Origin: Salinibaculum litoreum | GTDB taxonomy: Archaea; Halobacteriota; Halobacteria; Halobacteriales; Haloarculaceae | Assembly (NCBI GenBank): GCA_009789175.1 | Contig: CP046866.1 | Span: 806,001 to 870,000, forward strand | Reading direction: 5' to 3' | Length of the DNA stretch: 64,000 nucleotides | In this document: piece after piece, positions 6,748 through 18,821 of the stretch | Numbering within the stretch: position 1 is the stretch's first letter | Layout: each line of letters opens with the position of its first letter | Position numbers and translations under genes: made by a program | The notes under the pieces: generated by a model | Database searches by the model: none | Seen by the model: the letters and a program-made list of their open reading frames with translations, nothing else | What the model was told of the DNA's origin: nothing

Positions 6748-7677
6748 TCACAGCTCGAACGTGTCGGATTCGAGCGTGAGTACGACCCGCCTGCCGTCGG
6801 TTTCGATACTCCGAACTTCCTGGTCTGTGTTATCGCCTCTTACTTCGTCGATGATGGTCTGTTCGTGCTCTTCGAGTGCGCTTTCTGCATCTGCGGCCGT
6901 ATCGAACAACAGGTGTGCGATGACGCGCATCCCGCCACTGTCGGGTGGTATGACTTCGAGACCACTTTTGTTCACCGCTGCTTTGAGGTCCGGGTCACTG
7001 TCCTCTCCGAGCAGTCCCTCGCTGACTGTCACGAACGCACCGTCAGCGACCGCGACGAGGAGTTCCTCCCACCCACTGTCGGTACTGCCCAGCGAATCAG
7101 CAGTCCCGTGTCTGGCCTCGATGAAGCGCTGGTACTCCGTCCCCACGATGAAGGCGTCGTCACCGACAGCGAAGTCGCCGCCTATCACCTCGTATCCCTG
7201 TACTGTCTCGGTTTGCTCGTCGGTTGCGTCCATGTGGTCGAGAATCGCTTCCTTGTCGAAATTGCCAGAGATGGCCGTCACTCCCTCTTCACTCCGGATC
7301 TCGGTCCCGAAGAAGAACTCCATATCTGCCTCGTCAGCACCAGTCAGGTCGGCAAACCGCTGTATCTGGAACCCTTCGTAACTTTCCTGCGGAAAGTCCT
7401 CGCGAGCGGTCTGAATATCCAGTGCGAACGCGGTTGCGCCCTCGGTCACGAACATATCCGCCGGTATCCACGCAGCCCAGTCCGGGGGGTCTCCCTCCAG
7501 TGTCCCACCTGGCTGCTCGTCCGTCTCGTCGTCCGCTGGCGTTTCGGTTCCCTCTGTCGTCGTCTCGTCGTCACTATCAGTTTCGTCGTCGCCGGTGTCA
7601 TCTGTCGACTCCGAACAGCCGGCGACTGCCACTGCTGCTGTACTCCCGGCCACGTACAGATAGTCTCTTCTACGCAT
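6748..7677 (-). CDS. Tat lipoprotein, paralogue of its neighbour
   Basis: The 309-residue product starts MRRRDYL, has a lipobox VAGC with the acceptor cysteine at residue 21, and then a long Asp/Glu/Thr linker typical of haloarchaeal surface lipoproteins. The ATG at 7677 is chosen over one 15 bases upstream because it puts the twin arginines at the N-terminus. The mature domain starts with DWAAWIPADMF, and the next gene has the matching EWARWLPAEAL. Both also share a GxFD...EY.GV/EVI pattern. The function is unknown; the pair looks like an old tandem duplication. It converges on metE with a 16-base gap. Confidence 0.8.
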   Translation of the reverse strand: MRRRDYLYVAGSTAAVAVAGCSESTDDTGDDETDSDDETTTEGTETPADDETDEQPGGTLEGDPPDWAAWIPADMFVTEGATAFALDIQTAREDFPQESYEGFQIQRFADLTGADEADMEFFFGTEIRSEEGVTAISGNFDKEAILDHMDATDEQTETVQGYEVIGGDFAVGDDAFIVGTEYQRFIEARHGTADSLGSTDSGWEELLVAVADGAFVTVSEGLLGEDSDPDLKAAVNKSGLEVIPPDSGGMRVIAHLLFDTAADAESALEEHEQTIIDEVRGDNTDQEVRSIETDGRRVVLTLESDTFEL

Positions 7678-7920
7678 ATGTGAATGTTGCACATTACTAA
7701 ATGTATAATGGGGACTCTATTCTCATCAGTTGAAAACAAAGAATGGCCAAGAACGGGGCTTTGGTGCCATATATATTCGGTATTTGGGTTGGATGGGGCC
7801 GTTATGTAATTTTATTGGTTGTTTGTAGATCCTAAATTTGAGGGACTACCGTGTTGGTCACTGTCTCGCGTCGTGGTGTCGGCGATACCCTCCCGTGTTC
7901 GACCGGAATGCAAATCGCAC
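7678..7920. other. AT-rich intergenic region between paralogous lipoprotein genes
   Basis: These 243 bases are clearly more AT-rich than their surroundings and contain no credible reading frame. They must hold the promoter of the gene that starts at 7677. I see no repeat or RNA gene. Confidence 0.5.
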
Positions 7921-14421: not shown

Positions 14422-15672
14422 TCACCGCGGCGTTTCCGTCCCCCAGCGGTCGATAGCCGTCTCCAGTTCCGGACAGTCCGCGGCCGCTGTCTCGATTGGT
14501 TCGCCCGCGGCAGCCGCCTCCACCGCGCGCCGAAGTGCCTTCGCGCCGGCCCTGGTGCCGTCCGGGTGGCCGTGTACGCCGCCGCCAGCCTGGACCCCGA
14601 TGTTCGTTCCGAGTCGCTCGACCAGCGTCGGCACGAGGCCGGGATGCAAGCCGCCGGAGGCCATCGGCAGGACATCCCGGAGTCCGTGACACTCGCCGTG
14701 GAGCCACTCGTTGATGCCGACCGTATCCTCGTTTGCCAGTTTGCCCAGGTCCGCCGTCCCGGTGTGGATGTGGTCGACACCACACAGGCGGGCAACCTGT
14801 GCGATGACCCGCATCGAGACGCCGTGGGTGGGCACCCGGTCGAAGGCCGCATGCATCGCACGATGAGCGTGAATGGCCAGTCCGTGACGGTCACACCGCT
14901 CTCGGACCTGTTGGAGTGCCGCCCACCCCGTCGTGACGACATCGACCATCACGAACTCACAGCCGTGTTCTGCAGCCATATCCACCCGCTCTAGCATCTC
15001 CCCACCCGGCGCAGTCACGTTCAGCAGGTAACTCTTGGTCTCGCCGGTCTCCTCCTCGGCGCGGTCACGCTGTGCGAGCGATTCTGTCAGGCGGTCCTCG
15101 AACGGGTTGAACGCCTGGTCGGTGAGATTCTCGTCGTCTTTCAGCAGGTCCAGCCCCCCAGTCCAGGCCTCGTAGCCGATCTGTGCGTGCTGGTCGGTCG
15201 TCAGCCCAACCTTCGGTTTGGGAACCGTCGCGGTGATGGGGCGCTCGGGCGCGTCGAAAATCTCGGTTTTCACGCCGGTTCCGAACTGCGGGCCGGGGAA
15301 CGTCGTCGTCAACTGCTCGGGCCACTCGCAATCGAGCAGGCGAATCCGGTCGACGGCCTTCATGCCGAGGATGTTGCCCGCGATGCAGGACAGCACCTGG
15401 GGCATGCTGCCGCCCTCGAAGAGCGCGTCGGGGTAGGCGACGGTCACCCTGTTGTTGGCCTCGTCGATGTCGAACGCCGTCGCCGAGAGGTCCCGGACGG
15501 ACCCTTCGACTGTGAGTTCGGCCCACGTGCCGTTGGAACTCTCCGAGGCCACGCGGCTTGCCGCGTCGTCCCAGCTCATGTCCGACGCCGGTTCGATATA
15601 AAAGTCACAGACGAGGTCGGTGTCTCTCGGCTCGTAGTCGCGGTCCAGAAAGTCCTCGTACGTAATGCCCAT
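14422..15672 (-). CDS. rbcL: Ribulose bisphosphate carboxylase, form III
   Basis: The 416-residue large subunit has every key active-site element: PKPKVGL (K152), the carbamylated lysine motif GGLDLLKDDE (K178, D180, E181), HAHRAMHA (H270), HIHTGT (H303), loop-6 lysine K311 and the phosphate-binding SGG. Form III enzymes in archaea work in AMP/nucleoside degradation, joining ribulose 1,5-bisphosphate with CO2 to give two 3-phosphoglycerates, not in a Calvin cycle. The nearby R15P isomerase supports this. The ATG at 15672 gives MGITYEDFLD. The upstream genes 11496-13325 are on the other strand. Confidence 0.95.
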   Translation of the reverse strand: MGITYEDFLDRDYEPRDTDLVCDFYIEPASDMSWDDAASRVASESSNGTWAELTVEGSVRDLSATAFDIDEANNRVTVAYPDALFEGGSMPQVLSCIAGNILGMKAVDRIRLLDCEWPEQLTTTFPGPQFGTGVKTEIFDAPERPITATVPKPKVGLTTDQHAQIGYEAWTGGLDLLKDDENLTDQAFNPFEDRLTESLAQRDRAEEETGETKSYLLNVTAPGGEMLERVDMAAEHGCEFVMVDVVTTGWAALQQVRERCDRHGLAIHAHRAMHAAFDRVPTHGVSMRVIAQVARLCGVDHIHTGTADLGKLANEDTVGINEWLHGECHGLRDVLPMASGGLHPGLVPTLVERLGTNIGVQAGGGVHGHPDGTRAGAKALRRAVEAAAAGEPIETAAADCPELETAIDRWGTETPR

Positions 15673-15772
15673 AGGTACCACTTACCGTGGCAGGCGTATA
15701 AATCCGCTTGCGGACGAGGCTGTCTGGACTGTCGGTAGCTTCTTGGCTGTGCCAGCGCACTTCTCTGGCACG

Positions 15773-16387
15773 ATGATGGCGACCACCCACGGACTCTGGG
15801 GCGTTGCACTCGGTGCGACTCTGGCCATGCGGGCACCCGAGTACGCACCTGTGGCATTGGTCGCCGGGTTCGTCGGCGGCGTCGTGCCTGACCTCGACAT
15901 CTACGCGAACCACCGACGGACGCTGCATGCCCCCGTCTACGGTTCCTGTCTGGCGGCCCTCACAGTGGGTCTTGCCCTTGCCGTTCCGTCCGCCGCTACG
16001 CTCGCGCTCGCAGCCGCGCTGTCGGCCGCGGCCGTCCATGTGCTGATGGACGTTGCAGGTGGTGGGCTCTCCTTGCAGCCGTGGGCCGACCAGCCCGACC
16101 GCGCCGTGTATTCCCACTTTCATGGCCGGTGGGTCCCGCCGCGTGGCTGGGTCCGTTACGACGGCGCGCCCGAGGACCTCGCTCTCGCCTGTCTCGCCGG
16201 CGTGGGGCTGCTCGCTGTCGTCTCTGACCCATTCCGGTGGGGCATCGTGGCCCTGCTCGTTGCTTCTGTCGCGTACACGCTCGTCCGAAAACGCCTCGTT
16301 GCTATCGTGACCACGCTGCTGGCGTACACGCCGGCCAGGCTGTCGACGCTGGTTCCTCGCCGGTTCGACCACCTCAGAGAGCGGTAA
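15773..16387 (+). CDS. Membrane-bound metal-dependent hydrolase-like protein (DUF457/YdjM type)
   Basis: The roughly 204-residue protein starts MMATTHGLWGV and has conserved His and Asp residues (VPDLDIYANHRRTLHAP) and four or five hydrophobic helices, as in the DUF457/YdjM family of inner-membrane predicted metal-dependent hydrolases. The ATG pair at 15773/15776 is preferred over the frame opening at 15665, which overlaps the rbcL start. The substrate is unknown. It converges with the next gene with four bases between. Confidence 0.78.
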   Translation: MMATTHGLWGVALGATLAMRAPEYAPVALVAGFVGGVVPDLDIYANHRRTLHAPVYGSCLAALTVGLALAVPSAATLALAAALSAAAVHVLMDVAGGGLSLQPWADQPDRAVYSHFHGRWVPPRGWVRYDGAPEDLALACLAGVGLLAVVSDPFRWGIVALLVASVAYTLVRKRLVAIVTTLLAYTPARLSTLVPRRFDHLRER

Positions 16388-16391
16388 GGTT

Positions 16392-18254
16392 CTACTTCGA
16401 GTCGAGTATCTGCAGGTGGTTCCCGTCGAAATCACCGAGGTCGCCGGTGTGATACCACTCCTCGCGGATAGCGTAGGCCGTCGCCTGTTCGTCGTCCCAG
16501 TAGCCGTCCATGACGTTGGGGCCACGCACGACGATTTCGTCGTCCTCGGCAAGGGCGATTTCCATCCCTGGGAACGGCTCACCGACCGTGTCTGCCCGGA
16601 AGTCTTCGGGACCGGTAATCGTCGCGAGGCCGGTCATCTCGGTCGACTCGTAGATTTCCCGCATCGGGATGCCCAGTCCCCAGAAGAAGTGCAACACGTC
16701 GTCGTCGATGCTCTCGGTGCCCGTCAGTGCGTACGTCAACTCGTCGAGGCCGAACTCCTCACGTAGCGCCGGGAAGACGGTTCGCTTTGCCATCTTGTGT
16801 TTCAGCGACAGCCCCGAGGTCGCGCTGCGACCCTCGCGCATCCGCTCGCCGTAGGTCTCGGCGACGTCTTTGGCGATGAGTTGTTTCGCGCTGCCCATCT
16901 CCGCCAGCCGCTCTTGCATCTGTTCGTGGAGTCTGTCGTAGGCCCGTGGGACACCCACCAGCAGGTCCGGGTGGACGGTCTGTAGTTGGTCGATGAAGTC
17001 CTCGGTACTCATGTAGGCCACAGCGTTGCCGGTGTGCCAGAGGTAGTAGGTCGCGCTGCGCTGGTAGATGTGTGCAAGCGGGAGGAAGCAGGTCCCGGTG
17101 CCGCCGGCGTCCATCGGGAGCCGTTCCTGCAACATCGCGATGCTCGCAAGCAGATTGCGGTGGGTGAGCGTACAGCCACGCGGATGCTTGTCGGTGCCGA
17201 GTTTGTAGACGATAGTCGCCGGGTCGTCCTCCTCGCGGTCGAATCCAGGGAGTTCGTCCGGCTCCGCGTCCGGCAGCGTATCGAGCCGAAGCGCCGTCTC
17301 GACGGCTTGCTCGACTGTAACCGGAAGCGTCGACTCCGCGACGAGTACGTCGATGTCAGCGTCGTCGATGATGTGCAAGGCGCGTTCGTTCTCGTAGAGG
17401 TTCGAGACGGGAACCGACACCAGCCCTGCAAGCTGGCACGCGAGGTCGACGACCGACCACTCGTAACACGGGTCCGCGTAGATGCCGACCCTGTCGCCGG
17501 GTTCGAGCCCGTGTTCGAGGAGTCCCCCGGCGATGGACCGGGCATGCTCCCACACCTCTTCGAAGGTGTGCTCGTCCATCGCCTCCCGCTCGGGATGACG
17601 AGTCGCCGTCTTGCTCCCGTGTCTGGAGTGGACGCGGTCGAGCCACGCCGCCATCGGCCCGTCGGGTATCGAGAGCGCGTCACCGCTGTGAATCTTGCTC
17701 GTGAGCTCTACCTCGAATTCGGGAATCTCTTCCTCCTCGTCCTCGGCTTCAGGGTGGGCGGACTCGACTGCCCGGTCCTCCCGGAGTTTGCCCGGTTCGT
17801 ACTCGTACTCCTCGGCGAGATTCTCCGCGTAGTATTCGGCGTAGGTCTGGTCCTGGTCGTTCCCCGCGATGTGTGAATCCAGCCAGTCCCGGACGAAGGT
17901 CAGCACCTCCATCGTAATGTACTCGCCGTTTTCGTGCTTTTCCCGGAGTTCACGCACCCGCTCGGCGAATTCCTCGTGTTTGTCGCGGTGGTCGAAAAAA
18001 CAGTCCGCACAGTCCATCGAGAAGCCGCAGTCCTGCATAAACTCCTCTTCGTCGCCGAAGTGATACTCCGTGTATCGCTCCAACTCGACGAGGATGTCTC
18101 CGATTTCGTCCTCGGAATGACCCTCGTCCATCGCCACGTAGAGGTCGTTGAGTACGTCGAACAGATGTTTGTGCTGGTCGTCGAACCGGTCAACACCGGT
18201 GCTATACCGCTCGTCCTCCCACTCTATAAATTTCGAGTCGCCGCTGGTTCCCAT
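16392..18254 (-). CDS. Hemerythrin domain fused to a degenerate acyl-CoA synthetase (ANL) domain
   Basis: Residues 1-140 form a bacteriohemerythrin domain with all seven di-iron ligands (H28, H65, E69, H89, H93, H128, D133) and three extra cysteines (76, 82, 85). After an acidic linker, residues about 195-620 align with the N-terminal domain of long-chain acyl-CoA synthetases. The ATP-binding loop, normally Y-T-S-G-T-T-G-x-P-K-G, reads YKLGTDKHPRGC (350-361), losing the Ser/Thr/Gly and the lysine. The protein ends at ILDSK, exactly at the hinge where the C-terminal catalytic subdomain should begin. YESTE and HTGD motifs remain. I infer an oxygen- or redox-responsive ligand-binding protein or pseudoenzyme; a partner could supply the missing domain. 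Confidence 0.85.
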   Translation of the reverse strand: MGTSGDSKFIEWEDERYSTGVDRFDDQHKHLFDVLNDLYVAMDEGHSEDEIGDILVELERYTEYHFGDEEEFMQDCGFSMDCADCFFDHRDKHEEFAERVRELREKHENGEYITMEVLTFVRDWLDSHIAGNDQDQTYAEYYAENLAEEYEYEPGKLREDRAVESAHPEAEDEEEEIPEFEVELTSKIHSGDALSIPDGPMAAWLDRVHSRHGSKTATRHPEREAMDEHTFEEVWEHARSIAGGLLEHGLEPGDRVGIYADPCYEWSVVDLACQLAGLVSVPVSNLYENERALHIIDDADIDVLVAESTLPVTVEQAVETALRLDTLPDAEPDELPGFDREEDDPATIVYKLGTDKHPRGCTLTHRNLLASIAMLQERLPMDAGGTGTCFLPLAHIYQRSATYYLWHTGNAVAYMSTEDFIDQLQTVHPDLLVGVPRAYDRLHEQMQERLAEMGSAKQLIAKDVAETYGERMREGRSATSGLSLKHKMAKRTVFPALREEFGLDELTYALTGTESIDDDVLHFFWGLGIPMREIYESTEMTGLATITGPEDFRADTVGEPFPGMEIALAEDDEIVVRGPNVMDGYWDDEQATAYAIREEWYHTGDLGDFDGNHLQILDSK

Positions 18255-18389
18255 ATCCTGTTGTTACGATACGCGCCATCTAAATGCGACTTACATTCCC
18301 ATGAATTGAAAACACCCATCATTTTGAGGCTCGATACGTAGTTTGGACGGAAGACAGATGCAGCCCGCAGATAGCCCCGCAACTCACTA

Positions 18390-18821
18390 ATGTACGAACT
18401 CGACGACGACGAGATAGCGGCCGTGCTCGAACGAAACGGGGTTGGCGTCCTCGCCCTCGATGGGCCCGTCTACCCCTACCAGATACCGATGTGTTACGGG
18501 TATCTCGCTGCCGATGACTGCTTTGTCCTCCAGTTGACCGGCGGTGGCGAGAAACACCAGTCCATCCAGTTCAACCCCCGCGCCAGCGTCACCGTCTTCG
18601 AGGAAACCGACCCGGGCACGCGCTGGCAGAGTGTCGTTGTCCGTGGCGTCCTGGAAGCGATATCGTACCGGGACGAGGAACCAGCCTTCGCTGCGCTGGC
18701 AGCCAACACGCAGTCGGCACCGAATCCCGTCTCGTGGGCCGACTCGACCGACCGTGGGGACCTCGCACCGTATCGCCTCTCTATCGACGAGCGGGCCGGT
18801 CGCGCCTTCGAGTTGGGCTAA
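18390..18821 (+). CDS. Pyridoxamine-5'-phosphate oxidase-like FMN-binding protein
   Basis: The 143-residue product has the split-barrel flavin-binding pattern of the PPOX family (VGVLALDGPVYPYQIPM, then ASVTVFEE and WQSVVVRGVLEAI). Short archaeal members are FMN- or F420-dependent oxidoreductases or heme/flavin carriers; the substrate cannot be told. The gene is divergent from the hemerythrin fusion gene, and the 135-base gap between them holds both promoters. It overlaps the next convergent gene by four bases. Confidence 0.8.
   Translation: MYELDDDEIAAVLERNGVGVLALDGPVYPYQIPMCYGYLAADDCFVLQLTGGGEKHQSIQFNPRASVTVFEETDPGTRWQSVVVRGVLEAISYRDEEPAFAALAANTQSAPNPVSWADSTDRGDLAPYRLSIDERAGRAFELG

Follow-up and report, generated by a model that had tools for sequence, protein, structure and literature searches.

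The window analyzed here, a whole stretch of 64,000 nucleotides of Salinibaculum litoreum DNA, carries a gene in which a bacteriohemerythrin is fused to the N-terminal core of an acyl-CoA synthetase that lacks both its ATP loop and its catalytic C-terminal domain. The sequence evidence points, with a probability of roughly 0.45, to a di-iron protein that handles O2 or NO in microoxic or N-oxide respiration, that a flavoprotein probably reduces and that contains a non-catalytic, synthetase-derived module. Most hemerythrins joined to another domain are signaling proteins; a selected, catalytically dead synthetase on a hemerythrin would, if true, put the ANL fold to a new use and represent a new type of archaeal O2-/NO-linked protein. 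Additionally, a conserved flavoprotein-type neighbor is a candidate electron donor for the di-iron site, and a promoter dyad common to nirK, nosL and oxidase-assembly genes suggests a low-oxygen regulon with an operator other than the one published for NarO. To our knowledge, the regulators of denitrification are largely undescribed in the group concerned.

Architecture of the fusion gene

The predicted hemerythrin-ANL fusion proved to be real and is encoded on the minus strand by one 620-aa ORF, in which the following features were delineated:

16392-18254, minus strand: hemerythrin/pseudo-acyl-CoA-synthetase fusion gene, 620 aa (single ORF; Pfam and NCBIfam matches; 38 distinct homologues of the same architecture)
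17850-18230, minus strand: bacteriohemerythrin domain, residues 9-135, with ligands H28, H65, E69, H89, H93, H128 and D133 (NF033749)
17655-17849, minus strand: acidic linker, residues 136-200, with the conserved motif YxYxPGxLxxxR (invariant residues in 22 sequences)
16395-17654, minus strand: ANL N-terminal core without a C-terminal domain, residues 201-620 (PF00501, AlphaFold2, Foldseek)
17175-17207, minus strand: degenerate ATP phosphate loop, residues 350-360, YKLGTDKHPRG replacing YTSGTTGxPKG (lost in 38/38 copies)
17058-17084, minus strand: acyl-gate (A4/G) motif, kept as LPLAHIYQR, residues 391-399 (conserved among fusions)
16395-16418, minus strand: C-terminus at the hinge, HLQILDSK-stop (intact relatives read LQIVDRKK and then the C-domain)

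Pfam matched Hemerythrin to residues 19-134 and AMP-binding to residues 215-586 of the ORF (PF00501, 190 bits against a cut-off of 29.9), with no match to AMP-binding_C in the 620-aa protein. The YESTE and HTGD motifs named in the original prediction are present, at residues 535-539 and 602-605, and its reading of the loop residues K351, L352, D355, K356 and R359 was exact. Linker residues Y150, Y152, P154, G155, L157 and R161 are invariant in 22 fusion sequences, and about 100 invariant positions are found across both domains in 22 divergent copies. As had also been proposed, the protein stops at the hinge (ILDSK-stop), where intact relatives read on into the C-domain. The 3' neighbor of the gene is a convergent ORF (15665-16387), so that no C-domain is concealed downstream of the stop. 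A RuBisCO large-chain-type gene (PF00016, PF02788) lies near the fusion at 14422-15681 on the minus strand.

Conservation of the di-iron site

All seven di-iron ligands (H,H,E,H,H,H,D), predicted to be intact, were found in the window protein, which scores 114 bits with the NCBIfam bacteriohemerythrin model NF033749 against a curated cut-off of 84. The ligands HHEHHH are retained in 38/38 fusion copies, and the seventh is D in 33/38 and N in 5/38. The copies in which N replaces the last ligand D133 are L013, L014, L015, L023 and L031. Sequence matches of the hemerythrin part include solved bacteriohemerythrins, and the full ligand set together with the above-cut-off score resembles those of bacteriohemerythrins and O2-binding hemerythrins (NF033749; PDB 4XPX, DcrH-Hr). 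Unlike these proteins, the fusion places its hemerythrin ahead of an ANL core, and five relatives carry N as the last ligand. In the AlphaFold2 model the hemerythrin part is of low confidence at several ligand segments and is modeled less well than the ANL core. Single-domain hemerythrins without an ANL part also occur in fusion genomes.

Loss of the ATP loop and C-terminal domain

The search of haloarchaeal genomes for the same fusion and altered loop recovered 38 distinct copies; the ATP phosphate loop TSGTTGxPKG was lost in 38/38 of them and kept in 10/10 intact relatives. K351, L352, D355, K356 and R359 stand in place of T, S, T, G and K, which are invariant in the ten intact relatives, and retention in a reduced set of fusions was 0% for T351, S352 and K359 and 4% for G356. 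Among 96 columns conserved in the intact enzymes, seven are practically never kept in the fusions, amounting to 4/10 in the ATP loop vs 3/86 elsewhere (Fisher p 0.002).

Other motifs differ between lineages. GT(T)xHPxG, YxxTE and TGD are kept in Salinibaculum and Halovenus copies, and window-type copies retain G353, T354, P358, E539 and D605; the Mg-binding Glu of YxxTE is lost and HTGD has decayed in Haloarcula and Halosimplex fusions, both being present in the window copy. The acyl-gate residues L391, P392, H395 and R399 (PLxHxYQR) are retained in at least 85% of fusions.

The catalytic C-domain is absent in 37/37 full-length fusions, and their end points lie near one another. AlphaFold2 modeled residues 191-620 mostly at pLDDT 80-98 as a confident ANL N-domain, and Foldseek aligned this model to ANL chains of the N-domain only (TMt 0.81-0.86, prob 1.00). 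The fusion thus shares its N-terminal fold and acyl gate with the long-chain acyl-CoA synthetases of the ANL superfamily (PF00501; L056-L059 and L084-L086; FadD13 and MenE folds), but unlike them it is without the ATP loop, the C-terminal domain and the catalytic lysine, and is not a functional member. From the loss of loop and C-domain, the core is predicted to be no longer able to adenylate.

Distribution, origin and selection

One-per-species genome scans returned 59 fusion loci, 38 of them distinct. All belong to Haloarculaceae, with at least 38 distinct copies in six or more genera (Salinibaculum, Halovenus, Halorientalis, Haloarcula, Halosimplex and Halomicrobium), and 35/146 genomes of this family carry the fusion. 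Outside Haloarculaceae, evenly drawn samples of 293 genomes at the order level and 393 at the phylum level contained no fusion and yielded stand-alone synthetases only. The closest unfused relatives (e.g., L056-L059 and L084-L086) are 42-48% identical and intact, having both YTSGTTGxPKG and the complete C-domain. When the ANL part was analyzed by maximum likelihood, all fusions fell into one clade (100/99) that is sister to intact unfused synthetases; at the level of sequence phylogeny, this establishes that the fusion arose once, in Haloarculaceae.

The dN/dS of the ANL part, calculated for the 12 usable pairs after saturated pairs were left out, was 0.064-0.149 in 11 pairs and 0.241 in one. 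As judged from these ratios, the domain predicted to be dead is under purifying selection, and it is therefore a pseudoenzyme that has been conserved and not a decayed remnant. A frameshift or assembly error hiding the C-terminus was considered and excluded, because the 37 other distinct fusions also lack the loop and the full-length ones end near the same place.

Two loci depart from the common form. In L034 (Halomicroarcula sp. SYNS111), what remains of the hemerythrin is directly joined to the final ANL residues, as a deletion of the ANL domain between short repeats would leave it, and the N-terminus is incomplete too. The only non-full-length copy of the 38 is L092, cut at residue 503; L092 and L053, both of G292, are near-identical and lie near opposite ends of one contig, which may reflect a duplication or an assembly overlap.

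The original prediction knew of no described system of this kind. This holds insofar as no study of a hemerythrin-acyl-CoA synthetase fusion, or of a relevant ANL pseudoenzyme, was found in the open-access literature, but the hemerythrin plus AMP-binding architecture itself is listed there in one sentence of a single source, a 2016 survey (PMC4919030), for species called Methanococci. The Pfam domain pair named there is the same as in the fusion, and the proteins meant may be the same, but the assignment is to Methanococci and the main text of the survey holds no analysis of loop, C-domain, partner or promoter.

A flavoprotein-type partner gene

Both the partner gene described in this section and the promoter element shared across fusion loci are parts new beyond the original prediction.

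18390-18821, plus strand: divergent Pyridox_ox_2 flavin split-barrel partner, 143 aa (PF12900, 65.7 bits against a cut-off of 27)

Within 6 kb around 22 fusion loci, the only flanking gene common to more than four genus groups was this Pyridox_ox_2 gene of about 143 aa, present in 13 groups. The partner adjoins the fusion in 29/38 distinct loci, where it is divergently transcribed, and stands beside none of the examined unfused synthetases or single-domain hemerythrins. A close form of the partner (E <1e-30) was identified in 28/146 family genomes; 28/28 of these also carry the fusion, which the partner adjoins by coordinates, and it was found in 0/111 fusion-less genomes (Fisher p 8e-24, a statistic that ignores relatedness). 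The partner is missing at 9/38 fusion loci (Salinibaculum KK48, one Halovenus copy and the Haloarcula rara clade) and is therefore not strictly required. In Foldseek, its AlphaFold2 model (pLDDT 85) lies nearest to FMN/FAD split-barrel proteins, 2hq9 and NimA among them. That the partner carries a flavin we infer from its family only.

A promoter dyad shared with N-oxide genes

18296-18312, minus strand: 17-bp dyad TTTTCAATTCATGGGAA, consensus TTYYCA-N5-YGRGAA, a putative operator 41 bp upstream of the fusion ATG in the intergenic region shared with the partner
18279-18285, minus strand: TATA-like box ATTTAGA, ten bases downstream of the dyad (relatives have a TTTT-rich box in the same place)

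The dyad was found at a fixed position in 37/38 fusion loci (33 exact and 4 with one mismatch), also where the partner is absent, and the intact synthetase loci were without it. It also precedes single-domain hemerythrins in other haloarchaea, exactly at L035 and nearly so at L061, L033 and L062. Genome-wide searches by pattern matching gave 102 strand matches in seven genomes vs 5 for a reversed control, and the distance from the dyad to the next start codon peaks at 40-49 bp.

Eleven dyad sites were located in the own genome, of which seven precede nirK (TIGR02376, 389 against a cut-off of 296), nosL (PF05573), a DmsR_N+HTH_10 regulator, an HVO_0163-type HTH regulator, halocyanin, a HAMP-HATPase sensor kinase and the fusion itself. 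The remaining four, which either have no clear link to N-oxides or have no gene assigned, comprise a TAT lipoprotein (in the window), a small membrane protein, a cysteine-cluster protein (by eye) and one site without an assigned gene. Genes preceded by the dyad in relatives include CtaA, AhbA/B and MoaA.

These gene types overlap with those of the NarO-type haloarchaeal denitrification regulon (nirK, halocyanin, heme-synthesis genes and a DmsR-type regulator). The dyad TTYYCA-N5-YGRGAA differs, however, from the NarO-type denitrification operator of Haloferax, CGAA-N4-TTCG (PMC5746218, PMC10062603), which the fusion promoter does not contain; both elements are present at the nirK locus of the own genome.

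Proposed function and alternatives

In the preferred reading, the fusion gene would be switched together with microoxic or N-oxide respiration, and the di-iron site would bind O2 or NO under those conditions. The flavin of the Pyridox_ox_2 partner could return the site to the diferrous state, and the two proteins together would scavenge or buffer O2/NO. The ANL core may act as a non-catalytic module that places or modulates the hemerythrin and probably keeps an acyl or docking pocket. The flavodiiron NO/O2 reductases, in which a di-iron site is likewise served by a flavin protein, offer an analogy only; their folds are unrelated to those of the fusion and its partner, and redox coupling between the latter two is a proposal. 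A fuller version, in which a hemerythrin-flavin two-protein O2/NO system with an ex-synthetase acyl-binding or docking module belongs to a microoxic/N-oxide regulon with a so far undescribed operator (TTYYCA-N5-YGRGAA) and regulator, is put forward tentatively.

The original prediction is supported as far as a pseudo-synthetase on a di-iron hemerythrin with a plausible link to O2, NO or redox state is concerned, and the loss of the loop is conserved in all homologues. The lipid/acyl sensor that it suggested would be an O2/NO-gated one. Such a soluble regulator would bind fatty acid, acyl-AMP or acyl-CoA in the ANL core without turnover, and the oxidation state of the hemerythrin would alter binding or interactions. 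The PLxHxYQR acyl gate kept in most copies despite the loss of the ATP loop, the purifying selection on the ANL core and the frequent presence of hemerythrin in signaling proteins (PMC4919030) are consistent with a sensor; however, the gate motif may be retained for folding, the fusion is without an output or DNA-binding domain, no lipid or fatty-acid gene is common to the neighborhoods of the 22 fusion loci, and the nucleotide site (HTGD and the Glu of YxxTE) decays in Haloarcula and Halosimplex. A sensor of this kind is considered unlikely. A dedicated flavoprotein is in keeping with turnover, and no output domain is present; on these grounds the scavenging or buffering pair is narrowly preferred to a pure sensor.

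Explanations in which the synthetase part is still an enzyme, or is a relic, fare worse. Truncation exactly at the hinge would suit an adenylating enzyme split in two, to which a separate ANL C-terminal domain is supplied in trans, as originally proposed, but every ANL C-domain in 15 fusion genomes lies within a full-length ORF: nine PF13193 matches in the own genome each fall in ORFs of at least 539 aa, and a C-domain query of the 15 genomes (the own and 14 others) matched only ORFs of at least 659 aa, with no free domain among them. The ATP loop is lost too, and this explanation, already contradicted, retains almost no credibility. It is improbable that the altered-loop core still catalyzes a nucleotide-dependent reaction, e.g., in Salinibaculum and Halovenus copies; the G353, T354, P358, E539 and D605 of window-type copies would allow it, but the loop T/S and the PKG lysine are absent in 38/38 copies, the C-domain lysine is absent, and Haloarcula copies have lost the Glu as well. 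A decaying gene, i.e., a synthetase captured by a hemerythrin and now drifting, would account for relaxed motifs that vary by lineage, for the hemerythrin-only remnant L034 of SYNS111 and for the G292 copy cut at residue 503. This alternative had been coupled to homologues with a normal loop and C-domain; the loss is instead conserved in all homologues, dN/dS stays at 0.06-0.15 over many species pairs, about 100 positions are invariant in both domains of 22 divergent copies, and the single end point, the promoter element and the partner are all conserved. For the family, decay is already contradicted and hardly tenable.

Additional dyad sites

A second dyad of the window, TTTTCAACTGATGAGAA (7720-7736, minus strand), is located upstream of the TAT-type lipoprotein ORF (6748-7692, minus strand), with a chance expectation of 0.11 sites in the window. 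At L017 (5367-5383) and other Haloarcula loci, a further dyad precedes a small membrane protein gene (SHOCT-like by eye) that adjoins the partner. In two genera (L126 and L140), the dyad lies 44-48 bp before the start of an HVO_0163-type double-HTH regulator, a candidate autoregulated regulator. The DmsR-type regulators, which likewise have the dyad in their own promoters, are further candidates for the protein that recognizes it. In Halomicrobium, a dyad (L151, 2585-2601) is flanked by another Pyridox_ox_2 gene and a DoxX gene, and therefore the flavoprotein family may be in the regulon elsewhere too.
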